This document shows, one piece after another, positions 16,717 through 59,046 of a stretch of 64,000 nucleotides of DNA; the first letter of the stretch is position 1, and every line of letters starts with the position of its first letter. The stretch lies in NCBI GenBank assembly GCA_002050125.1, contig MWTA01000044.1, forward strand, positions 1-64,000, in the 5' to 3' direction. Below the pieces are notes generated by a model. That model was given only the letters and a program-made list of their open reading frames with translations, did no database searches and was not told the origin of the DNA. Made by a program: the position numbers and the translations under genes. The stretch comes from Anaerolineae bacterium UTCFX2. GTDB taxonomy: Bacteria > Chloroflexota > Anaerolineae > Anaerolineales > UBA4823.

Positions 16717-17583
16717 CTAAGCTTTATCAGCTGTTTTTACCAAGCTACGCACAAGCTGATTTGCGTCCGCTGCGGCGCGGACGGGATCACCGGTGCGATC
16801 CAGGTGAGCCCACATCTCAACGACCAGCGGACCAGAGAAAGCTAACTCTGCCAATGTCTGGAAAACGTCACTAAACGGAACAATGCCTTGTTCAAAAATC
16901 ACGCCGCGCACTTCGCCCGGCAGGGCATCTTTAACGTGAATTCCTACCAGGCGACCTTTTGCCAGATTTATCTGTTCTACCGGATCGTACCCAGCGGCTG
17001 CCAGATTGCCCATGTCGGGGTAAACGTTCAGCCACGGCGAGTTGACTTCACGAACGAAGCGCAGGGCTTTTTCGACCGAGTCCACGGTTTCAACATCCAC
17101 GTTTTCCAGCGCCAGCATGACGCCAGCTGCGCTGGCACAGCGCGCCCCTTGAATCAGACCTTCTATGAAGCGCGCCTGGGTTCCTGCGTCGCTGGTCTCA
17201 TAGAAGACGTCGTACCCCATCAGTTGAATAACCCTTGCATCCAAGTCATACGCCAGCTCGATCGCGCGGTAGAGCATGTCCAGCCCTCGGGAGCGCGTCT
17301 GGGCGGAGTTGCTGCCCAGCGGGAACTTGCGGTGACCGCTGAGACCCATCGTCAGGATGGGGACTCCGGTGTTCTCCATCGATAGCCGTAAAGCAAGCCG
17401 GGCGGATCGTGGCCATTCCAGGCGGGACAGGCGTTCATCGCTGTCATCGATGGACATCTCTAAAAAGTCATATCCAGCTTTGGCTGCCTGGTTTAAGCGC
17501 TCTTCCCAGGAAAGATCCGCCGGGAACGCTTTCTCGTAGATTCCCAGGGGATTATTTCCGAAATTTAGCATTTCCTGCCTCAT
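16717..17583 (-). CDS. L-ribulose/L-xylulose-5-phosphate 3-epimerase (UlaE-like)
   Basis: TIM-barrel sugar-phosphate epimerase (AP endonuclease 2 superfamily). The N-terminal LGIYEKAFP followed by FLEMSIDDSDERLSRL is characteristic of UlaE/SgbU. Metal-ligand acidic and His positions appear in LALENVD, VYPDMGNL, GIHVKDALPGE and VVEMW. 288 aa from ATG 17583 (TTG 17586 and ATG 17571 are alternatives). It overlaps the end of the SorC-type regulator by about 30 nt. With the AraD/UlaF-like protein in the same operon it supports L-xylulose-5-P to L-ribulose-5-P to D-xylulose-5-P. Confidence 0.88.
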   Translation of the reverse strand: MRQEMLNFGNNPLGIYEKAFPADLSWEERLNQAAKAGYDFLEMSIDDSDERLSRLEWPRSARLALRLSMENTGVPILTMGLSGHRKFPLGSNSAQTRSRGLDMLYRAIELAYDLDARVIQLMGYDVFYETSDAGTQARFIEGLIQGARCASAAGVMLALENVDVETVDSVEKALRFVREVNSPWLNVYPDMGNLAAAGYDPVEQINLAKGRLVGIHVKDALPGEVRGVIFEQGIVPFSDVFQTLAELAFSGPLVVEMWAHLDRTGDPVRAAADANQLVRSLVKTADKA

Positions 17584-18640
17584 CAACTTTCTGGGTTTTC
17601 TGCATGAAAGAGTAACTCTCGGCTATGGTCTCCCTTGATCTCTTTAGCTCCACCGGCAAATCTACGTCTTGGTGTATGAGACAACAATCAATAACTCCAT
17701 TTGCAGCGGCTTCATCGGTTACCAGACTGCTCAAGTGACCGCCTCTCAAGGCGCCGTAGATCGCCTGGGATTTTTCGGCGGAACTGGCAACTCCAAGGCG
17801 CAAGGGAATGCGTTTCAATTCATCTAAAGAAAGCCCAACCACCCGGTCGGCGTACTCCGGCGCACACGGATTTCCATCAATATCGTAGACAACCGCAAGG
17901 GTTTCGCCTACCCCTCCGTAAAGTTCTGTTATCTGAAGCATTTCTTCGGGCGATAACGCGGTGAACAGCACGAAACGTGATGAATTGGGATCCACAGTGC
18001 CTACGCCGATCAGCGCGATAGAAGCCCGGCGCGCAATGTCCAGGACTTCCTTGATAGGCGCCATCTGCAATAACGCCTCACGCTGGTCTGGGGTTTCGAC
18101 AAATGCGGGAGAGAAAAGCTGGTATGACCTTCCGCCCAGCCGTTCAGCCAGCTGAGAAGCTAGAAAATTCACGTCGGTGGTTGACCGTCCTTGAATTCCA
18201 CCGACCGCTGGCACGACCTCCACCTGGTACTTTCGTTCTGTCACGACTGATTCGACGAGGGCATAGATTGTGGCGCCGCCGCCGACGGCTATCACATCTC
18301 CATCCTGGAGATGATTCAGCAGGAAACGTGCGCCTGCCATGCCAATCGAGCGCAGGCTGGTTTCAGATCCTTCGAGTGGGACAATCCAGGCGTCATGCAA
18401 ATCAAAGTGCTTCTGAAGCTCAGCCTCCATATCGAAGAGGTATTGGAATGGCGTCTTAATGGCAAACTCTACCATCTTGTTCCGGCGCGCCAGTTGCAGC
18501 AAGCGATTCACCTTGGTGGTGGATAGCCCAAGCTGGTGAGCAATGTCAGACTGGGTTAGATCGTTGACGTAATACAAGTTCAATATCCGGTTCATCAACC
18601 GGGCCTGGAGGTAGTCGTTGTCGAGCAGCCAATCTACCAC
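17552..18640 (-). CDS. Sugar-binding transcriptional regulator, SorC/DeoR type
   Basis: DNA-binding regulator with an N-terminal helix-turn-helix (LTQSDIAHQLGLSTTKVNRLL, about residues 29-48) and a C-terminal SorC-type sugar-phosphate-binding domain. Domain features are VAVGGGATIYALV, PAVGGIQG, ALIGVGTVDPNS and the C-terminal GVVIDCCL-like end block. It starts with GTG 18640, with AAGGA upstream. 362 aa. Encoded inside the sugar operon between the aldolase and UlaE genes, so local autoregulation by a phosphorylated pathway intermediate is likely. It is the second regulator of the locus besides the HutC-type protein. Confidence 0.9.
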   Translation of the reverse strand: MVDWLLDNDYLQARLMNRILNLYYVNDLTQSDIAHQLGLSTTKVNRLLQLARRNKMVEFAIKTPFQYLFDMEAELQKHFDLHDAWIVPLEGSETSLRSIGMAGARFLLNHLQDGDVIAVGGGATIYALVESVVTERKYQVEVVPAVGGIQGRSTTDVNFLASQLAERLGGRSYQLFSPAFVETPDQREALLQMAPIKEVLDIARRASIALIGVGTVDPNSSRFVLFTALSPEEMLQITELYGGVGETLAVVYDIDGNPCAPEYADRVVGLSLDELKRIPLRLGVASSAEKSQAIYGALRGGHLSSLVTDEAAANGVIDCCLIHQDVDLPVELKRSRETIAESYSFMQKTQKVDEAGNAKFRK

Positions 18641-18681
18641 GGGGTTTTCCTTCCAGACAGAACTTAATGATTACAGTTGGC

Positions 18682-19323
18682 TTATTGCCCGTAAAGAGTT
18701 GCGTAGATATTTTGGAATTCGGTTACCTGTTCGGGCGTCAAAACGATTGGATTGCCGTGCAGCATAGCGTAGTGAGCAATCTTTGCCAGGTCTTCCACCT
18801 CGACGGCGATCACGGTGGCTTTCCATACGGTCGGCGCAAAGGTATAGACGCCATGGTTCTGCATCACGATTGCAGAACAATTGCCGATCTTTGCCATGAT
18901 CTCCGATCCGATATCTTCGCCTCCGACGGGGGCATAACCGCCAATCGGGATCTCTCCGCCTAAGAGAGCTACGGAGGTCATTACCGGCGGGATGGGCTTG
19001 CCCAGAACTGCGAATATGCTGGCGAAAGGCGAATGGGTGTGCACAATGCCATGGATATCGGGGCGGCGCTTATACATATACAGGTGGGTTTCGGTGTCGC
19101 TTGATGGTCTGAGATTCCCCTCCAGACGCTTTCCCTCAGCGTCGATCACCAGCAGGTCTGCCGGGGTTAGCCGGTCGTAGCGGAATCCGGTGGGTTTAAT
19201 CACAATCAAGCCGGTGGCGGGATCGCGCCCGCTGACGGTACCGCTGTGCATCGTAACAAGATGATTCTTAGGTAACTCAATTAGCGATTCGTATACTTCC
19301 TGGCGAAGTTCATTAAGCATCAT
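18682..19323 (-). CDS. Class II aldolase/adducin family (AraD/UlaF-like 4-epimerase or aldolase)
   Basis: Zinc enzyme of the class II aldolase fold, either L-ribulose-5-phosphate 4-epimerase or an L-fuculose-phosphate-type aldolase. Motifs: SGRDPATGLIVIKPTGFRYD, PSSDTETHLYMY, the zinc ligands in GIVHTHSPFAS, and MQNHGVYTFA. 213 aa, slightly short of the 230 typical of AraD. ATG 19323 has GGAG 8 nt upstream. The SGRDP.TGL.VIKP block is closer to ribulose-phosphate epimerases. With UlaE next door this gives the last step to D-xylulose 5-phosphate, a reading that is likely but not proved. Confidence 0.87.
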   Translation of the reverse strand: MMLNELRQEVYESLIELPKNHLVTMHSGTVSGRDPATGLIVIKPTGFRYDRLTPADLLVIDAEGKRLEGNLRPSSDTETHLYMYKRRPDIHGIVHTHSPFASIFAVLGKPIPPVMTSVALLGGEIPIGGYAPVGGEDIGSEIMAKIGNCSAIVMQNHGVYTFAPTVWKATVIAVEVEDLAKIAHYAMLHGNPIVLTPEQVTEFQNIYATLYGQ

Positions 19324-48987: not shown

Positions 48988-49269
48988 AGTTGCTTCTCCA
49001 TTATAAATTTGTGAAACCGATCATGGGATACGGGTTTGCAGCTGCAGGACAATGACTGGATTATTCGCTATCTTTCGCAGTATATGGTTATAATGGGTCA
49101 GAATAGTATTATATATACTTCCTTGTAAAAAGTCTACTCAAACAAGGATGCTAATTTGACGACCAATCACTGTCTCACCTTTCTTCTTGGGCGTTCTAGC
49201 CGTTCAAAAACCAGGCGGGAGGTGTTAGAATTTAGATGCAATTCACCGATCAAAATTGAGAGGAAGACC

Positions 49270-50352
49270 ATGAAGCCACGCGAGCGCGTTTTGACGGCAT
49301 TACACCATGAAACACCGGACCGCTGCCCGATGCAGGTCTCATTCACGCCTGAGTTTGCCCAGCGATTGAGCAAGGAATTGGGTCTGGAGGATGAGAAGCT
49401 GCACAATCCACACGGGGGCGGCAACACCTACGAACTGGAGCGCGCTTTGGGCGAGGATATGCTGTTGACTTCAGTTGGGTGGGCAAATTCCTATTATCAG
49501 GATGCGCGCGAATATGTGGACGATTGGGGAATCGGCTGGCGGTCGGTGGATTACGACACGCCTTTTGGCATGGGGCGTTACACCGAAATGGTGGGACGCC
49601 CGCTGGCTGACGCTGAGGAGATTGACCGCTATGAGGCCCCCGACCCGCAGGCGCCGGGTTTGTACGACGAAGCCGCTTGGGTGCTGCGGACATTCAAAGA
49701 CGAATACTGGATTGTGGGCGTCACCGTCACGACCATCTTCGAGACGGCTTGGGCGCTGCGCGGCTATGAACGCCTGCTTTCGGACATGGCGCTGAACCCC
49801 GAGCTGGCTGAACGTGTTCTAGACATCCCATACCGATATCATCTGACGGCAGCCAAACAGCTCACGCGCATGGGTGTGGACATGATCTGGCTGGGCGATG
49901 ACGTTGGCGCGCAGAAGGCGATGCTGATCTCGCCAGGTATGTGGCGCAAATTCTTTAAGCCGCGCATGGCGCACCTGATTGCGGAACTCAAAGCGATTAA
50001 CCCTCAAATGAAGGTTGCATACCACTCCGACGGAGTAATTTATCCGATCATTCCAGACCTGATCGAAATCGGTTTAGACGTGCTCAATCCAATTCAGCCC
50101 GCCAGCATGGACCCGGTTCGGCTCAAGCGGGAATTTGGCAAGCATCTGTGTTTTTGGGGCTCGATTGACGAACAACACACCCTGCCGTTTGGCTCGCCCG
50201 AGGACGTCAAGGCAGAGGTATTAGCCCGAATTGAGACCCTGGGGAAAAATGGCGGCTTGATTCTGGGACCGACTCACCACGTCCAATTGGACACCCCGAT
50301 GGAAAACTTCTGGGCAATGATCAACACCATCACCCAAACACGATGCTCATGA
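49270..50352 (+). CDS. Uroporphyrinogen decarboxylase (URO-D) family protein
   Basis: 360 aa TIM-barrel of the URO-D superfamily. N-terminus MKPRERVLTALHHETPDRCP, typical of non-canonical members, then EDMLLTSVGW, VDYDTPFGMGRYTEMVGRPLADAEEI, a metal/substrate region with DMIWLGDDVGAQKAMLISP, AYHSDGVIYPIIPDLIEIGLDVLNPIQP and GLILGPTHHVQLDTPMENF. The frame opens earlier at TTG 49156, but ATG 49270 has GAGAGGAAG upstream. Canonical HemE motifs are missing, so it is more likely a corrinoid/coenzyme methyltransferase-like or unassigned member. A weak TATAAT (49089-49094) lies upstream. Confidence 0.85.
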   Translation: MKPRERVLTALHHETPDRCPMQVSFTPEFAQRLSKELGLEDEKLHNPHGGGNTYELERALGEDMLLTSVGWANSYYQDAREYVDDWGIGWRSVDYDTPFGMGRYTEMVGRPLADAEEIDRYEAPDPQAPGLYDEAAWVLRTFKDEYWIVGVTVTTIFETAWALRGYERLLSDMALNPELAERVLDIPYRYHLTAAKQLTRMGVDMIWLGDDVGAQKAMLISPGMWRKFFKPRMAHLIAELKAINPQMKVAYHSDGVIYPIIPDLIEIGLDVLNPIQPASMDPVRLKREFGKHLCFWGSIDEQHTLPFGSPEDVKAEVLARIETLGKNGGLILGPTHHVQLDTPMENFWAMINTITQTRCS

Positions 50353-50928
50353 AGAATGAAATCCATCTCCATCGCGAACATCGATCTCGATGATCTCTCC
50401 ATTGGCTGGAATCAGCTCGCGAACCCTTTCGAACGGGGTGCTGCTGAAATAGGCGCGCAAGACCGCCAGTGTGTAACCATGCGCGACGATAGCCACTGAA
50501 CCAGTGGGGTGGCGGGAAAGGATGTCTCGAATAGCCGCCAGAGAGCGCTGCTGGACCTGGGCGCCGGTCTCGCCTTCTGGAGCGGCGACGTTGAATTGGT
50601 CTTTACGGCGCTCCTCGAGTTCTTTTAGATAGCTCTTTTCGATCTCCTGTCTGGTGAGCCCTTCCCACACTCCCAGATTGATTTCTCGCAGGCGCGGGTC
50701 AGCCTGAATCGCGATTCCTTTGTTTTGACTGAGCAGGCGCGCGGTCTCGCGGGCGCGCCGGAGATCGCTGGTGTAGATCGCATCGATGGGATAGTCCTCC
50801 AGGTCAGCAACCAATTGGCGAGACTGCTCGTGCCCATTCTGGTTGAGAGGAACATCCGTATGACCTTGCCAGCGACCTTGGGCATTCCAATCGGTTTCCC
50901 CGTGCCGGATCAGGATCAATCGCGTCAT
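50347..50928 (-). CDS. Histidine phosphatase (GpgP-like), glucosylglycerate pathway candidate
   Basis: 193 aa phosphatase of the phosphoglycerate-mutase-like family. Catalytic RHGETDWN at the N-terminus, then DLRRARETARLL, GVWEGLTRQEIE and AIVAHGYTL (second His). The start ATG overlaps the gpgS stop by 4 nt (ATGA), so translation is coupled. Actinobacterial glucosyl-3-phosphoglycerate phosphatase (GpgP) belongs to this family, so it likely removes the phosphate from glucosyl-3-phosphoglycerate. A cobalamin phosphatase (CobC) role is the alternative. Its 3' end overlaps the convergent URO-D gene by 6 nt. Confidence 0.87.
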   Translation of the reverse strand: MTRLILIRHGETDWNAQGRWQGHTDVPLNQNGHEQSRQLVADLEDYPIDAIYTSDLRRARETARLLSQNKGIAIQADPRLREINLGVWEGLTRQEIEKSYLKELEERRKDQFNVAAPEGETGAQVQQRSLAAIRDILSRHPTGSVAIVAHGYTLAVLRAYFSSTPFERVRELIPANGEIIEIDVRDGDGFHSS

Positions 50929-52739
50929 CGTTTTCTCGTCTCATTGTATTCAGGAATGCTGATCATCGGTGGGCGATCCAGTTCGGAAATCTCCTCTACC
51001 TCCAGAAACAAGCGCCCAGTTTCATAGCGAATTAATTTCATGGTTCGGTTCACATCCTCAAGTACGGAATAGCCGGAATAGTCATCCAGCTTATGGGTTA
51101 CTGCCTGGATAATCGCAAAAGACATTTTGCTCAACGCCTCCAGGGATTGATTGTGGTGGACGCGCTCTTGTAAATCAACCTGAGCAATGCAGCCCAATCC
51201 ACAGGTCTTAAACACGTCGATTATAAGACCGATCTCTACACCATAGCCTGAGAAAAAGGGCAGTTTCTCCAGGAGCGACCGGCGGCCTCCGTATTCGCCC
51301 GAGAGCGGTTGAATCAAGCCCGAGAGCTCAGGGAAAAACAAGTTCAGGAGCGGTCTAGCGGTCAATTCGGTGACGCGCCCACCGCCGCCGGCGACCAGGC
51401 GTTCACCAACTTTTATCGGTCGGCGGTAGAACCCTTTGACAAATTGAATATCTGGGTTAGCCAATAGCGGCCCTGCCAACCCATAGATGAAGCGCGGGTG
51501 GATGTTTACAATATCTGTATCGATCCACAGGATGATGTCGCCTTTAGTGACATACAGGCTTTTCCACAAAGCCTCTCCTTTACCGCGCCGCGCGCCGCAC
51601 CTGGGGAGAACTTGTTGATGGACATATACCGGTATCCCCAGGCTGGCGGCAATCTGACGGGTTTCATCCTGAGAGTTTGAATCGATCAGCACAATTTCAT
51701 CGAGGAGAGAGCTGTGGTCCATCAGCTCCTCTTTAATCGTTCCGATCACCTTTCCGACTGTTTTAGCCTCGTTTAGCGCCGGTAAAGCAACGCTGATGGT
51801 CAGGTTTTGACTGTGTTTCAAACGGACCAGTTCATCCAGGTCTGAAAATTCTTTGGCATGATAGGTATTTTGGGCAAACCAGCGGTCGACGAGCACCGAA
51901 ATAGCCTGGCTGCCGGCTGCTTCCGGGTGAGGGTCGATTACCATAGGTCGGTGGGTTTTCACTACGACGAGCCCAGTAGTACTGTTTTCCAACAGGCGCT
52001 GGGCGACGGCGCCCAAACCCTCGAACTGCTCGGTTGGCTGGGCAGTCGCACCCATGACGATCAAATCAAAACGCGGCGCAAAATCCATAATCGCGGCAGC
52101 CGGTTCATCGCTGGTAATCTCGCGCTTTTCTAGCTCAGGCAGGTTTTTTAGGACGCGGTTGATGCCACGGAAAGGCGCATCCATCTGGGCAGAGCCGCTT
52201 TCGGGGCGGATGTGGAGCGAAGTCGCAACCGCGCTTTGGCTATGACACATAGCGAGGGTAATGCGGATAGCCAGTTCCGCATGTGGTCCGCCGCGAACTG
52301 GTGCCAGAATAGTGTCCACCTTTTTTGGTACAGGTCCGCGAACCAGTAAAACGTCACAAGGCAGCTCCTGAAATACCTCGAATGGGGTTACCTGAAGCTG
52401 ATCGAAATGACCTGGCCATTCGAGAATGATTAGATCAGGCTGCTGGTCGTGGACGATCTGTTTGAATTCATCCCATGGGCAGCTCGAAACCGCAACGAAT
52501 GACAGGCAGCGGAGTTGGGTGCCGCGCATAAGCTGGCGAAGTTTGAGACGGAGCCCCTGTGCTTTGTAAGCGCCTTCGCTTATCGATCCCTGTTCAGCGA
52601 TTCCAACCATGCCAGCCAGCAAAATAGAGTTATCTCTGGTGATCCAACGCGCAATTTCAAGCGCAGCGCCGGTTTCGGTGGTTTGAAAAACTGGCAGAAT
52701 TGTCTTTCGAAAGGGGTTATTAACATAGACTTGTTTCAT
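50925..52739 (-). CDS. gpgS: Glucosyl-3-phosphoglycerate synthase fused to universal stress domains
   Basis: The C-terminal half (about 310-604) is a GT81 glycosyltransferase making glucosyl-3-phosphoglycerate from an NDP-glucose and 3-phosphoglycerate. It has VALPALNEAKTVGKV, IDSNSQDET, RRGKGEALWKSL, LWIDTDIVNIHPRF, GGGGRVTELTARPLLN and IQPLSGEYGGRRSL, all close to the mycobacterial enzyme. Residues 1-300 look like two tandem UspA-type domains (ILPVFQ and LILEWPG in the first, ILAPVRGGPHAELAIRI and DLIVMGATAQ in the second). That fusion is unusual. Full length 604 aa versus about 320 for free GpgS. It is followed by the phosphatase, with ATGA overlap. Confidence 0.92.
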   Translation of the reverse strand: MKQVYVNNPFRKTILPVFQTTETGAALEIARWITRDNSILLAGMVGIAEQGSISEGAYKAQGLRLKLRQLMRGTQLRCLSFVAVSSCPWDEFKQIVHDQQPDLIILEWPGHFDQLQVTPFEVFQELPCDVLLVRGPVPKKVDTILAPVRGGPHAELAIRITLAMCHSQSAVATSLHIRPESGSAQMDAPFRGINRVLKNLPELEKREITSDEPAAAIMDFAPRFDLIVMGATAQPTEQFEGLGAVAQRLLENSTTGLVVVKTHRPMVIDPHPEAAGSQAISVLVDRWFAQNTYHAKEFSDLDELVRLKHSQNLTISVALPALNEAKTVGKVIGTIKEELMDHSSLLDEIVLIDSNSQDETRQIAASLGIPVYVHQQVLPRCGARRGKGEALWKSLYVTKGDIILWIDTDIVNIHPRFIYGLAGPLLANPDIQFVKGFYRRPIKVGERLVAGGGGRVTELTARPLLNLFFPELSGLIQPLSGEYGGRRSLLEKLPFFSGYGVEIGLIIDVFKTCGLGCIAQVDLQERVHHNQSLEALSKMSFAIIQAVTHKLDDYSGYSVLEDVNRTMKLIRYETGRLFLEVEEISELDRPPMISIPEYNETRKR

Positions 52740-52804
52740 TTCAACTTCCGATCTCGTTCATTCATTGACAAAAGACTGATCTTTGCCAACTGTGAAGCGC
52801 CTGT

Positions 52805-54055
52805 TCAGCGGGGTTGAACAGCTTGCAGACACATCGGCTCAATCTGCTGGCGGTAAATGACCTCCCAGTCGTAAAATTGGCGAACCCTTTTCCGCAGGCT
52901 ATAAACCTGATTGTATTTCAGGCGTTGATGGATCATCAGCGCGATTGTTTCGGGCGAATCGCCCGGGCTGAAATAATCCGCATCATCTCTGGCAAGTTCA
53001 CGTAAAGCTGGAATATCGGTGCAGAAAATCGGGAGACCGCTCAAGCCCGCCTCAAGCACCGGGATGCCAAAACCCTCCTCCAGGCTGGTAAGCAGCAAAC
53101 CATCAGCCAGATGATAGAAATCCGCAATGACCTCATCGGGCAGGAATTCCTGGCTTAGCTCCGCCAGGAAATGAACAGCCGGCTGCCTATCGGCGCGGAA
53201 AAGCTCCAGACTATTCCGCAGTTCGAGCAACTCTGAAAAATAACGCAGGTTTGCAGGATTGTGCGGGCCTATCGGTCCGGTGATCAACAGTTGAGCGGCT
53301 GGCATCCGTTTGCGCAGGCAGGCGATTGATTGCAGCGCAAGTTCAATATTCTTGCGCCGGGTCAATCGCACTGGCATCAACAACAGCGGCGCGGCTTCGA
53401 GCAGGTTTAATTTCTCAAGTATCGCGCAGGTTTTTGGGGGAAGTTTAAGAAATTCCGGGATATCGATACCGTTTGGTATTACAAGAATCTTTTCTGGTGG
53501 AATATCCATCAGCTTAGCCAACTCCTGCCGGCGCTGCTCAGATACCACAATCTGGCTGCGCACACCCGGCCACGCGGTTGATAAAGCAGTCCAAGGATAG
53601 CGATTGTACAGTTCGCTTTGATAGCGCGGCGTTGTCCAAGCCAAATCATGATGCCACAAAACCACGGGTGGGCGTGCTTCTGCGTTGGCGAAATTCATCA
53701 GCGCGACCGTAAGCGGCAAATTCTTGTTTAGCGATGCGACATTATGAGCGATTAGAAGGTCGATTCCATGCAGATGACTTCGCAGTAATGTTTCGATTTT
53801 CTCAACCATATGATCAAAAGAGACTGGAAGGTGTCCGCGATCCAATTCGGCTTTAATCTGCAGGATTTCTGAGTGACGGCTGTCAAATAATGGCACATGG
53901 ACAAACTCGACCTTGGGAATTACCGCTTCGCCGCGCCCGGCTAAAATCCGAACCTGATGACCGGCAGACGTCATCAGGCGGGCATGGTGGCGGATTACAC
54001 TTTCCACACCACCCACAACCGGCGGCGCCGCGTAATGTAGAATGGCAATATGCAT
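52805..54055 (-). CDS. Glycosyltransferase family 4
   Basis: 416 aa GT-B glycosyltransferase. N-terminal acceptor domain begins IAILHYAAPPVVGGVESVIRHHA; C-terminal donor domain has LLMPVRLTRRKNIELAL and the GT4 signature LLTSLEEGFGIPVLEAGLSGLPIFC. RBS AGGGAG lies 15 nt upstream. Sits 65 nt upstream of gpgS in the same operon, so it may extend glucosylglycerate or add mannose. Its donor is not readable. Confidence 0.88.
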   Translation of the reverse strand: MHIAILHYAAPPVVGGVESVIRHHARLMTSAGHQVRILAGRGEAVIPKVEFVHVPLFDSRHSEILQIKAELDRGHLPVSFDHMVEKIETLLRSHLHGIDLLIAHNVASLNKNLPLTVALMNFANAEARPPVVLWHHDLAWTTPRYQSELYNRYPWTALSTAWPGVRSQIVVSEQRRQELAKLMDIPPEKILVIPNGIDIPEFLKLPPKTCAILEKLNLLEAAPLLLMPVRLTRRKNIELALQSIACLRKRMPAAQLLITGPIGPHNPANLRYFSELLELRNSLELFRADRQPAVHFLAELSQEFLPDEVIADFYHLADGLLLTSLEEGFGIPVLEAGLSGLPIFCTDIPALRELARDDADYFSPGDSPETIALMIHQRLKYNQVYSLRKRVRQFYDWEVIYRQQIEPMCLQAVQPR

Positions 54056-54142
54056 CTCGATTATTCCAACTCCCTTTCTGGTACAACCATTCGATCCAGT
54101 CAGCCCCCAATTTCGATGAGCACTCGCAAGCAGGCGGCTTGT

Positions 54143-55924
54143 TCAGTTATTCAAACGCTTGGTTTGTTCATTGGTTGCCTGGATTGCAAGGTCGATCAAG
54201 ATCGCAGCAGACCAACCAAAGATCGGAGCGGCTTTTGGCGGATTGGCGCCAGTGATCGGGTGATAATATTCATAGATGTCTGGCTGGCTGCAAATCATAT
54301 CTAGCGTGCGGCGTCGAAGCTCGCGCGCCAGATCAGCATAGCCGCTCCTAAATAGTCCTTCAATCAACAGGTAGTTAATATTGATCCATGTTGGTCCGCG
54401 CCACATCTGGTCGGGATTGAATTTTGGATCATTCCTCGCAACAGTGGCAACCGGGAAAGGTGTCCAGAATTGTTGCTCATCAATGAGGTTTTGGACGAGG
54501 CGGGCTGAGATGCTTTGAGGAATCCGACCAGTGATCAAAGGGAAGAGATTAAATGGCGTGCGCGCATCGACGCGTTGACCATTTCGGCTGGCCCAGAAAA
54601 AACCAGCCTCTTCATCCCACATTGATTTTATCATACGATTTATCAGATCATTAGCCTGGCTGTCCCAGGCTTGCGCATCTGATTTCTCTCCGATCACGCC
54701 AGCGATTTTCGAAAGATAATTGAGCTGCAGGTACAGGTAGGTATTCAGGTCTGGAGCTTCGACTGGCATACCGTCATCCCAAAGCGGGCTGTCATCCAAA
54801 CCCGATGAGAATGGATGTTGGTATTCACATAAACCGTTGTGATCTGTGTCGCTGTGTTCAAACCACCAGCGGTTCCAGCGGGTTAATGGTTCATAGATTT
54901 CATTTAGGAACTCGGTGTCCTTGCTAGTTTCATACAACTTCCAGGCTGCCCAGGTAATCAGCGGGGGCTTAGTGACGTCCGCATCAATCGGAAAATCCAG
55001 ATGTGTTACCACGCCCTCATCGTGAACGGCATCTGGCAGCATACCGTCCGCGCGCTGGTGGTCGAGCAGAACCCGCAATTGATCCTTTGCAAGGTTCATG
55101 TCGACGTGTCGATAGGCGATTGCATGGAAATATGCATCCCACTGCCAAACCCCCAGATAGAAAAACTTTGAAGGAGTCATCGATTCTCGCGTGGTGTAAT
55201 AGCGAGTCGATATCAGACCGGCGCGCATCACCCACCAGGCATAATAATATTGAGGTTGGTAGGGGTCTGCAACAGGCGGGACGGAGGCAAACCAGTCATG
55301 CCAGCGGCTGGCTGCACGTTCGAGGGCGGCAAATGGATCTGGGATGTAGCGATTTAAGCCAAGTCGAGGCGTGATGTTAATTTGAAAGGAGTCGCCCGCT
55401 TGCGAGAGGAACCTCGTTTGGCTGACCAGTTGGGTGTCAGCCGGCGCGCTGATTTCATTGCTTAGTAATTGTGCGTTGGTGGTATAGGCGATATTACGCT
55501 GGATTTGCCCGGTGGTGCGCAGAACTCCACCACGCCGGTCAACCTGCCCTTCGTCGACGTTGGCGAGGAAATTTAATCCGAAATTACCGGCGGGAAGGAG
55601 AATTGAAAGCGTTTCCTGGTCTTGAAAAAAGATTGTGAAAACCCCCAGGCTTGTCTGGCAATGCAAGCAATGTGGGTAACTGGTGAGCGAGAAGTCGAGC
55701 GGGTTACCCTGCCGGTCGGTGAATTGCAGATCTTGGATTATCGGCGGTCGTTTTCGATAGGCAGCGAGCTGCCCGCTGCGTTTGAACCAGCGTTCTGCGA
55801 GTCGAATGGAAAACGAATGATTCGTACGGTATACCAGAAGCCGGGATCCTCGGTCGGTAAAGGGAATCTCGCGCAGCTCGATGCGGTTCTCTAGCATGGT
55901 AAGAAATGGTGAATCGATAAGCAT
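54143..55924 (-). CDS. GH63-like glycoside hydrolase (mannosyl-/glucosylglycerate hydrolase candidate)
   Basis: About 593 aa; an N-terminal beta-sandwich domain (about 1-210) and an (alpha/alpha)6 catalytic domain. Hallmarks: FFYLGVWQWDAYFHAIAYRH, LDDSPLWDDGMPVEAPDLN, EDAGFFWA-type acidic stretch (EEAGFFWASRN) and MWRGPTWININYLL, which fit MGH1/GH63-type hydrolases. GgH and MgH of this group hydrolyse glucosylglycerate and mannosylglycerate, but they are shorter (about 440 aa) and usually lack this N-domain. ATG 55924 (with GGAG upstream) or TTG 55942 is the start. It overlaps or nearly abuts the GT4 gene upstream in the operon. Confidence 0.82.
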   Translation of the reverse strand: MLIDSPFLTMLENRIELREIPFTDRGSRLLVYRTNHSFSIRLAERWFKRSGQLAAYRKRPPIIQDLQFTDRQGNPLDFSLTSYPHCLHCQTSLGVFTIFFQDQETLSILLPAGNFGLNFLANVDEGQVDRRGGVLRTTGQIQRNIAYTTNAQLLSNEISAPADTQLVSQTRFLSQAGDSFQINITPRLGLNRYIPDPFAALERAASRWHDWFASVPPVADPYQPQYYYAWWVMRAGLISTRYYTTRESMTPSKFFYLGVWQWDAYFHAIAYRHVDMNLAKDQLRVLLDHQRADGMLPDAVHDEGVVTHLDFPIDADVTKPPLITWAAWKLYETSKDTEFLNEIYEPLTRWNRWWFEHSDTDHNGLCEYQHPFSSGLDDSPLWDDGMPVEAPDLNTYLYLQLNYLSKIAGVIGEKSDAQAWDSQANDLINRMIKSMWDEEAGFFWASRNGQRVDARTPFNLFPLITGRIPQSISARLVQNLIDEQQFWTPFPVATVARNDPKFNPDQMWRGPTWININYLLIEGLFRSGYADLARELRRRTLDMICSQPDIYEYYHPITGANPPKAAPIFGWSAAILIDLAIQATNEQTKRLNN

Positions 55925-55931
55925 CCGTAAA

Positions 55932-57239
55932 CTACTCTCCAAAACAGTCCGAAATCAGCGTCTCGAGCCGCCGCTTTAGCACCGCGAAAGAGAAAAACCG
56001 GACGCCCAATGCGTAGTTTAATTCAATCATATCCTTACGCAGCGCGGCGTTCTGCAAGACTTGCCTGGTTTTTTCGATGGTCTGTTCGGTGATAAAACCG
56101 TCGAACTCGATCACATTGAAACCTTTAGGTTTGATATCCGTCGAAAAAATGGAATAATTATTAACGATAACTGGCTTGCGAAAGTAGATGGCTTCTAGAA
56201 AAGCATTACCGAACCCCTCTATAGTAGAGGGGTATGTAACCAAATCGCATTTCTGATATGCATCTGCTAGAGAATAGATTTTTTGACCGTCGTGCGTCCG
56301 ACTACGTTGTTCGAGAATTATTTCTGATACGAAATTAACCGGCACTTCCAGCAGCTCTGCATATTTACGCACGTGCCGCTCATATTCATAACCCTCGTCG
56401 CCTGAGGCGTGCGAGATCACCAGCCGGGCTTTCATGCCCAGGCGGCGAACGAGCTCGATTGCATTTTCGATACCTTTGCGCTGAACGACTCGGGTAGGCT
56501 GCAGGATGAAAAGCTCGTCCGGTTGAAAATTCAGATCCTGACGCAATTCGTCCGCATAGTGGTCGTCATCCTGCGGCGGGTGCTCGAAATCCATGACGTT
56601 GGGTATCAGCATGCTTGAAATCCCGGTACGGAGGCTGAGCTGGTTCTGAGCAGAGGTGTTGATTACAACATGTCGAATGGATGGCAGGTGGGGCGGAAAA
56701 GCCATGTTGAGATAATCCCAAACACAATTGACCAAGAAACGCTTGCGCTCCCAAAAGAAGTCGTGGTGGTGGGCAATGGTAGGGATACCCGTTTCGGCGA
56801 TAAACTCTGTTAGCGCCAAGCCAAGTGGGATATTCATTGGAATTGCCAGGGCGTTTTGAACGACCAGAAGATCGATTTCAAACTGACGAACATAATTTGC
56901 TAGATGATCCGCGAGGCGCTCGGCAAGACGATGGATGTTCAAAGTTAGTTCGCGCGGCCGGCGGCGCATTGAGAATGCTTTCTCGTAAATTTCCTGAATT
57001 TCGGGGTGATAGAAATTTGCCTCCGGAATTTGATATGAGACATTTCCGGGTTTATCGTTTAAACCGGCGAAGAAGAACAGCTCATGCCCTAATTCGCGCA
57101 GTACCCCAGCCCATTTTTCTGTTTCTAAGGATACGCCATCCGTTCCGGAAAATCGGGTTGATACAAATCCGATCCGATGTGTCTCGTGGGAAGGGGAGTG
57201 AACCGAGAATGGGTATGGAGTAGGGTTTGACATGATCAT
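55932..57239 (-). CDS. Glycosyltransferase family 4, mannosylglucosylglycerate synthase candidate
   Basis: 435 aa GT-B enzyme. N-terminal IGFVSTRFSGTDGVSLETEKW, then HHHDFFWERKRFL, and a C-terminal donor domain with ILQPTRVVQRKGIENAIELVRRL, VTYPSTIEGFGNAFLEAIYFRKP. The N-terminal motif and neighbours fit GDP-mannose:glucosylglycerate mannosyltransferases of Thermotogota-type MGG pathways, but that assignment rests on resemblance and context, not on a search. It lies 43 nt after the GH13_18 gene. Confidence 0.85.
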   Translation of the reverse strand: MIMSNPTPYPFSVHSPSHETHRIGFVSTRFSGTDGVSLETEKWAGVLRELGHELFFFAGLNDKPGNVSYQIPEANFYHPEIQEIYEKAFSMRRRPRELTLNIHRLAERLADHLANYVRQFEIDLLVVQNALAIPMNIPLGLALTEFIAETGIPTIAHHHDFFWERKRFLVNCVWDYLNMAFPPHLPSIRHVVINTSAQNQLSLRTGISSMLIPNVMDFEHPPQDDDHYADELRQDLNFQPDELFILQPTRVVQRKGIENAIELVRRLGMKARLVISHASGDEGYEYERHVRKYAELLEVPVNFVSEIILEQRSRTHDGQKIYSLADAYQKCDLVTYPSTIEGFGNAFLEAIYFRKPVIVNNYSIFSTDIKPKGFNVIEFDGFITEQTIEKTRQVLQNAALRKDMIELNYALGVRFFSFAVLKRRLETLISDCFGE

Positions 57240-57282
57240 TTTTGTTAGTCCGATGTTGTTTATCGTTTACTCAGATTGATTA

Positions 57283-59046
57283 TTATTCAGCGCGAGCCAA
57301 CCAGCACACCTGGTAAGGAGCAAGCTCGATTGTTAGAGTCTCACGATAATCGTGCACTTGTTCGGTAACGAGGTCCGTTAAGGCGGCTAGATGCCCCGCT
57401 TCGATCCCAATCTGTTCGAAGTTCAAGGCGACAGATTGAGATTTGGCAGTGATGTTGTGCAAGCAGATTATTCGATCAGCGGGGGAGCGCCTCTTCCAGC
57501 GCATCAAACCAAAGACTTCCGGTCCGAGACTGATCGATTGTTGCTCGCCATAAGGGTCGAAACCGGCGCGGCTGGCTCTGGCAAGCAGCAGACGTTTGTA
57601 GCGCGAATAAATCTTTGCGCGGCGCGCATCGGGGTCATCAAGCGCCTGTTCGAGATCCATTCGAGATAGCTTACGGCGGTTAATCGCTCGATTGTAACCG
57701 AGCAGCTTTACGCCTTCAGTCCAGCCACGCGAGCCGAAGAGGCTGTGGAAATAAATACCTGGCAAACCGACCAGGGATAGCATGACAGCCTGTGAACAGA
57801 TGAAACGGTCCACTTGCAGATCAAGCGGTTCAAGAGACTGGGGGTCGTTAAGCGCATCGTAGTAATTGATATTCAGTTCATAAGGACTGCGCGATCCGTT
57901 GGCGTTGGCTTTGTAGCTGACGAGACCGCCATGCCGTTCAGCCTGATTTACCAGCGCTTCAATTTCTGCGTCAGAAAGAATGCCGCGCGCCGGGTTCAAA
58001 CCAATTCCGTCATGCGATGCCAAGAAATTGAAGAAGGTGATTTGATCGGAGGGGAGCTTAAATGTGTCGACCCAAGCATTCAACGTACTACAATTTCCGG
58101 TCCGGAAGGTATGTAATAGGAGCGGTGGCAGGGTGAAGTTATAAACCAGATGGGCTTCGTTTGACCCATCTCCAAAATACGAAAGATTATCCGCGTGAGG
58201 CACGTTGGTTTCCGTAATAATCAGCATATATGGCGTAACCCAATCGTAGATGGCGCGGATAAGCCGGACAATCGCATGGGTTTGCGGCAGATGAACGCAG
58301 GGAGTGCCTGGCTCTTTCCAGACGAAGGCAATAGCGTCTAGGCGGATGAGTTGGGCGCCGTGGGCAGCGTAGAAAAGGAGCAGATCTACAAGCTCGAGCA
58401 ATACTTTTGGGTTTTTATAATTGAGATCAATTTGATCGGCGCTGAACGTGGTCCAGACCTGGCGGGATCCTGACAGAGTGTCGAAGTACGTTAGCAGCGG
58501 CGTGGTGCGCGGCCGGACAACCATGGTGAGATCCGGTGCATCATCTATGGTAATAAAGTAATCCTGATATCTGGGATCGCCTCTCAAAAAGCCTTGAAAC
58601 CAGGCGCTCTGAGATGAGACGTGGTTAACGACAACATCGAACATAAGTGCAAAATCCTGGCTGAGATGCTGGATGTCTGCCCAATCTCCCAAAGCTGGAT
58701 CGACCTGGTGATAATCGATTACCGAAAATCCGTCATCTGAAGAATGAGGATAGAAAGGGAGCAGATGAATCCCACTGACAACGCCTTGCAGGTATTTTTG
58801 TGCAAATTTTTGTAGAGTCTCGAGCGGTAATAAGCGAGCATCTTGCAGCATATCAGCATAGGTGATCAACAAAGCGTCTTTTTGACTCAAACGAGACTGC
58901 ACAACGGAAAGGCGGTCCGAGGGGTTATCTTTCGCATAGCTTACAAGACGCTCTTCAATCTGTGACAACAGATTAGTGGCTGCCTCTGCGCTATAAAGCT
59001 GCTTCAGGAGCGTTAAAATCTTTCTTTTAGGGTGTTTGGCGACCAT
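57283..59046 (-). CDS. GH13_18 phosphorylase (sucrose/glucosylglycerate phosphorylase type)
   Basis: About 587 aa (beta/alpha)8 enzyme. Conserved GH13 regions: DVVVNH (I), RLDAIAFVWKE (II, nucleophile Asp), ITETNVPH (III, acid/base Glu) and FLASHDGIGL (IV). VVSGIHLLPFYPHSSDDGFSVIDY is the subfamily-18 N-terminal block, and FYAAHGAQLIRLDA is close to sucrose phosphorylases. Subfamily 18 includes glucosylglycerate phosphorylase, which fits the neighbours better than sucrose. Start ATG 59046 is preferred to GTG 59085. It heads the minus-strand operon. Confidence 0.9.
   Translation of the reverse strand: MVAKHPKRKILTLLKQLYSAEAATNLLSQIEERLVSYAKDNPSDRLSVVQSRLSQKDALLITYADMLQDARLLPLETLQKFAQKYLQGVVSGIHLLPFYPHSSDDGFSVIDYHQVDPALGDWADIQHLSQDFALMFDVVVNHVSSQSAWFQGFLRGDPRYQDYFITIDDAPDLTMVVRPRTTPLLTYFDTLSGSRQVWTTFSADQIDLNYKNPKVLLELVDLLLFYAAHGAQLIRLDAIAFVWKEPGTPCVHLPQTHAIVRLIRAIYDWVTPYMLIITETNVPHADNLSYFGDGSNEAHLVYNFTLPPLLLHTFRTGNCSTLNAWVDTFKLPSDQITFFNFLASHDGIGLNPARGILSDAEIEALVNQAERHGGLVSYKANANGSRSPYELNINYYDALNDPQSLEPLDLQVDRFICSQAVMLSLVGLPGIYFHSLFGSRGWTEGVKLLGYNRAINRRKLSRMDLEQALDDPDARRAKIYSRYKRLLLARASRAGFDPYGEQQSISLGPEVFGLMRWKRRSPADRIICLHNITAKSQSVALNFEQIGIEAGHLAALTDLVTEQVHDYRETLTIELAPYQVCWLARAE

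Follow-up and report, generated by a model that had tools for sequence, protein, structure and literature searches.

Members of the Anaerolineae are abundant but poorly represented in culture. The genome of Anaerolineae bacterium UTCFX2 carries six adjacent genes that appear to build and dismantle compounds based on glucosylglycerate, a small protective sugar acid. Why would genes for making and breaking the same compounds be kept in one run, and on which bonds would the individual enzymes act? We addressed these questions using a 64,000-nucleotide stretch of DNA (the window), which is part of a 65,948-bp contig (G000:C78) of a 2.92-Mb genome estimated to be about 83% complete.

Operon layout and gene identities

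The six genes are intact ORFs on the minus strand that fill positions 50347-59046 in the ORF list of the window (Table 1). They are transcribed in the order GGaP, GT4a, GH63, GT4b, GpgS, and His-phosphatase, with successive gaps of 43, -11, 87, 65, and -4 bp. These values bear out the unidirectional run with short gaps (-11 to +87 bp) described by the original prediction, and the final gap of -4 bp means that its ATGA overlap between the GpgS and phosphatase genes is real. Our profile searches also gave the same domain calls. The operon is flanked by two plus-strand genes. A GNAT gene diverges at its 5' end, and a gene for a URO-D/MtaA-like methyltransferase (49156-50352) converges on its 3' end and overlaps the end of the phosphatase gene by 6 bp. 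Promoter-like and terminator-like matches at the operon are in no excess over shuffled sequence, and therefore we infer from gene spacing that the six genes form one transcript.

Table 1. Genes of the predicted operon in transcription order
Gene	Predicted product	Length (aa)	Position	Strand	Basis
GGaP	GH13_18 glucosylglycerate phosphorylase	587	57283..59046	-	YcjM identity, two GGaP signatures
GT4a	MggS-like GT4 glycosyltransferase	435	55932..57239	-	NF041101, 248 bits; E-x7-E motif EGFGNAFLE
GH63	Capless protein with MGH1-like catalytic domain and N-terminal beta domain	599 (TTG start)	54143..55942	-	PF22422
GT4b	GT4 glycosyltransferase accompanying GpgS	416	52805..54055	-	PF13439/PF00534
GpgS	Glucosyl-3-phosphoglycerate synthase; universal-stress-protein region N-terminal to a GT2-type domain	604	50925..52739	-	NF010496
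His-phosphatase	Candidate GpgP	193	50347..50928	-	PF00300, 207 bits; RHG motif; ATGA overlap with GpgS

The first gene can be assigned firmly, judging by its sequence, to glucosylglycerate phosphorylase (GGaP; EC 2.4.1.352). Its product is 44% identical to Escherichia coli YcjM over the full length of the protein (578 alignment columns, 483 bits), and it carries both signatures that separate GGaP from sucrose phosphorylase (PMC7178133). Specifically, the (T/S)ETN motif of strand beta-5 is present as TETN at residue 278, and loop A has Glu rather than Gln (SPYELN, compared with SPYEIN in YcjM). Nearly every GGaP homologue in the neighborhoods that we collected shares these two features. A grouping with sucrose phosphorylases, which the original prediction had named as evidence against itself, is not borne out; the sucrose phosphorylase model scores only 197 bits against a cut-off of 334. 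A glycerate kinase (PF13660, 261 bits) is encoded elsewhere in the same genome.

The assignment of GpgS is likewise firm. The NF010496 model scores 379 bits, above its curated cut-off of 262, and solved GpgS/MpgS relatives match with E values down to 2e-75. With this enzyme and GGaP both securely identified, the proposed union of synthesis and breakdown genes in one cluster holds. The N-terminus of GpgS is fused to a universal-stress-protein region (PF00582, residues 142-261). This fusion appears to be phylum-wide because the match begins at or before query residue 42 in 81 of the 87 Chloroflexota genomes with a hit. A literature search returned no paper in which GpgS and universal-stress-protein terms are combined.

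The remaining biosynthetic genes are less easily classified. The phosphatase fits GpgP, as had been suggested, only by its position beside GpgS, and its closest solved relative is another bacterial phosphatase (1h2e/1ebb, 114 bits) rather than Mycobacterium tuberculosis GpgP (73 bits), and no phosphatase gene was seen in many related clusters. The two GT4 proteins are 25% identical to each other. Neither reaches the 640-bit cut-off of the MggS model NF041101, which GT4b matches at only 74 bits and which no protein in 301 Chloroflexota genomes passes. The suggestion that one GT4 enzyme could add mannose is weakly supported: GT4a resembles mannosylglucosylglycerate synthase (MggS), but its score is far below the cut-off. 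We left the sugar donors of both enzymes unassigned because solved sequences in the PDB gave no match for GT4a and weak, mixed matches for GT4b.

We also searched for enzymes of mannose supply. Neither a GMP_PMI-type mannose-1-phosphate guanylyltransferase nor a GDP-mannose dehydratase was found in this 83%-complete genome. We considered whether this indicates that GT4b does not use GDP-mannose, and dropped the argument upon searching four genomes of a more distant family (f24), which have no strong GMP_PMI match and carry a GDP-mannose dehydratase above the cut-off. At another locus (L089), a GH125 alpha-mannosidase-like protein (17440-19203, 49.5 bits) is encoded near GGaP and GH63. As a single case, it was set aside as support for mannose.

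A GH63 protein that lacks the glycerate-binding cap

The original prediction allowed that the GH63 protein might hydrolyze glucosylglycerate. Its catalytic domain matches PF22422 at 270 bits, whereas the equivalog model for glucosylglycerate hydrolase (GgH), NF047898, requires 550 bits and gives only 109. The predicted structure (pLDDT 82, falling below 50 in catalytic stretches 380-384 and 554-573) comprises a beta domain at the N-terminus and a catalytic domain of the alpha/alpha type. It matches E. coli YgjK along its whole length (VIA Z 32.5, 3.7 A, 538 residues) and Thermus MgH across the catalytic domain (VIA Z 32.5, 2.0 A, 317 residues).

For a residue-level comparison, we aligned the sequence with Mycolicibacterium hassiacum GgH (MhGgH), Thermus MgH, and sixteen orthologues, taking the roles of the glycerate-contacting residues from published work (PMC6608630). 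D383 and E558 align with the catalytic pair Asp182/Glu419 of MhGgH, and Tyr36, Trp40, Trp42, Asp43, and Trp376 (MhGgH numbering) are kept in GH63 and its orthologues. The segment that runs on from the catalytic Asp and holds the cap and Arg216 is reduced to 23 residues from 80, leaving no equivalent of Arg216. Moreover, Tyr88 (H314), Gln115 (Lys), and Tyr375 (M513) are replaced in this protein and in nearly all orthologues. An apparent match of Tyr222 with Y402 falls in the deleted stretch and was not trusted. Because the protein is built like YgjK, glucosylglycerate itself is an unlikely substrate, and with the cap and most glycerate-contacting residues missing that assignment is not supported.

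The genomic settings of related proteins bear on the same question. At three loci (L083, L113, and L120), a short GgH/MgH-like GH63 is encoded near the long GH63 and GGaP, together with genes for a LacI regulator and an ABC importer. These short proteins keep all of the glycerate-contacting residues, and therefore the long GH63 probably acts on something else. Long GH63 genes also adjoin TreS-like GH13 genes (L047-L049 and L099) and GT20 genes resembling trehalose-6-phosphate synthase (L097, L099, and L109). By inspection of their sequences, the GH13 genes look TreS-like, and we rejected them as divergent GGaP genes. In 29 of the 80 additional loci described below, the GH63 orthologue has no GGaP, GpgS, or GT4 gene nearby. 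Given these orthologues, and those beside TreS-like genes, the substrate of GH63 may lie elsewhere.

Recurrence of the gene set among Anaerolineae

Among the 301 Chloroflexota genomes, we detected GpgS in 87, GT4b in 65, GGaP and the MggS-like GT4 in 37 each, and orthologues of GH63 in 21. GpgS and GT4b occur together in 63 genomes compared with 18.8 expected (within 500 bp in 57 of the 63), and GGaP and GT4a in 25 compared with 4.5 expected (within 500 bp in 17), although detection thresholds differ by family and the relatedness of the genomes inflates such statistics, so that the P values serve as indications. Since these families co-occur far above expectation, the six-gene arrangement is not a product of chance. 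GT4b is present in 19 of the 21 genomes with GH63 (4.5 expected) and GT4a in only 10 of them; GH63 tracks GT4b more than GT4a. The pairing pattern suggests that two modules, GpgS with GT4b and GGaP with GT4a, are joined in this operon with GH63 between them.

A scan of GTDB contigs using the GH63 alignment yielded 80 further loci, nearly all of them labelled Chloroflexota or Anaerolineae. At least one of GGaP, GpgS, GT4a, and GT4b is present at no fewer than 51 of these loci. Because contig ends cut many flanks, the individual counts are lower bounds: at least 35 loci for GGaP, at least 31 each for GpgS and GT4b, at least 15 for GT4a, and at least 10 for the phosphatase. All four of the former genes lie beside GH63 at 12 of the 80 loci, and 5 of these 12 have the phosphatase as well. 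The more distant family f24 keeps GH63, GT4b, GpgS, and GGaP in a row, with neither GT4a nor the phosphatase nearby, and cultured Longilinea arvoryzae (L088) carries GT4b, GpgS, phosphatase, and GH63 genes side by side.

The gene set or its core therefore recurs across Anaerolineae, contrary to the initial view that it is unusual in Chloroflexota. Likewise, GGaP genes are frequently accompanied by genes for glycerate kinase, GpgS, or GpgP (PMC7178133), so that synthesis beside breakdown was already known in principle. In a literature search that covered mostly titles and the beginnings of abstracts, with few subscription papers, we encountered no description of this gene set in Chloroflexota and no paper linking Anaerolineae to glucosylglycerate.

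A proposed make-and-break cycle and its alternatives

We favor, with modest confidence, a scheme for a glucosylglycerate-based oligosaccharide in which every bond has its own maker and breaker: GpgS and GGaP for the inner bond and GT4b and GH63 for the outer one. In the cell, GpgS would join glucose from an NDP-glucose donor to 3-phosphoglycerate, yielding glucosyl-3-phosphoglycerate, from which the phosphatase would probably take off the phosphate. GT4b would then attach an outer sugar, and GT4a would supply a further or alternative sugar, probably by adding mannose to glucosylglycerate or otherwise by extending it. During breakdown, GH63 would release the outer alpha-linked sugar, and phosphorolysis of the glucosylglycerate left behind, catalyzed by GGaP, would yield glucose 1-phosphate and glycerate, with the glycerate entering glycolysis via the glycerate kinase. 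That GH63 follows GT4b and not GT4a suggests, as a correlation rather than a proof, that it removes the GT4b sugar. More tentatively, the capless GH63 might be an exo-alpha-glycosidase of new specificity for that sugar, which would make GpgS, GT4b, GH63, and GGaP a self-contained cycle for a glucosylglycerate oligosaccharide so far undescribed in Chloroflexota.

Other readings of the operon differ chiefly in the roles given to GGaP and GH63. GGaP might instead act as a synthase that supplies GT4a with glucosylglycerate formed from glycerate and glucose 1-phosphate; GGaP with GT4a would then be a second biosynthetic route beside GpgS with GT4b. The phosphate level in cells usually favors phosphorolysis, and we regard this route as rather unlikely, even though GGaP and GT4a are direct neighbors in 17 genomes and the reaction is reversible (PMC11009771). 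The pair is also found apart from GpgS and GT4b in three genomes (G005, G018, and G112), and in two more (G184 and G240) it occurs with no detected GT4b or GpgS of the type found in the operon. It is improbable that the products are simply glucosylglycerate and mannosylglucosylglycerate, with GH63 as a GgH/MgH-type hydrolase of the former; the MGH1-like domain and the place of Thermus MgH among the top fold matches speak for this, and the low equivalog score, absent cap, and substituted glycerate contacts speak against it.

The absence of the cap, which in GgH/MgH closes the glycerate subsite, is, together with the two GT4 enzymes, compatible with glucosylglycerate being the primer of a longer polysaccharide that GH63 trims, and in mycobacteria glucosylglycerate is an early intermediate of a methylglucose lipopolysaccharide-type polymer (PMC4555173). 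Nevertheless, the ORF list and domain calls reveal no methyl- or acyltransferase within the operon, and GGaP would break down the primer itself, which makes this reading very doubtful. Also hard to accept, and in our view the least probable, is that the breakdown genes mainly salvage imported glucosylglycerate glycosides and cluster with GpgS only secondarily. Several loci (e.g., L083, L089, L103, L107, L108, L113, and L120) do combine GH63 and GGaP with an ABC importer and mostly a LacI regulator, and some of them include the short GgH/MgH-like GH63. Yet in the window we saw neither an importer gene nor a LacI gene adjoining the operon, in which synthesis and breakdown genes are interleaved.

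The make-and-break scheme assigns concrete, testable enzyme functions to conserved gene pairs, including a GH63 group that has had no assigned substrate. The gene set is common in Anaerolineae and for the most part brings known enzymes together in a new way, with the capless GH63 as the exception. Its GGaP has both signatures, as do the enzymes from the clusters of Meiothermus silvanus, Spirochaeta thermophila, and E. coli (PMC7178133), whereas here two GT4 genes and a capless GH63 gene are interleaved and glycerate kinase is encoded elsewhere. GpgS and an MggS-like GT4 recall the pathway to mannosylglucosylglycerate, which is a known solute of Petrotoga and Rhodopirellula (PMC3694870), but GT4a falls well short of the MggS model, and this locus adds a second GT4, GH63, and GGaP. 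GH63 shares its catalytic domain, Asp/Glu pair, and W-x-WD motif with GgH/MgH of M. hassiacum and Thermus thermophilus, and differs in lacking the cap, Arg216, and Tyr88, in the replacement of Tyr375 by Met and Gln115 by Lys, and in its extra N-terminal beta domain. Finally, it has the two-domain architecture of E. coli YgjK and the whole-length fold match to that GH63 enzyme, although the two are only 20% identical and the score of 130 bits is far from the cut-off of 625.
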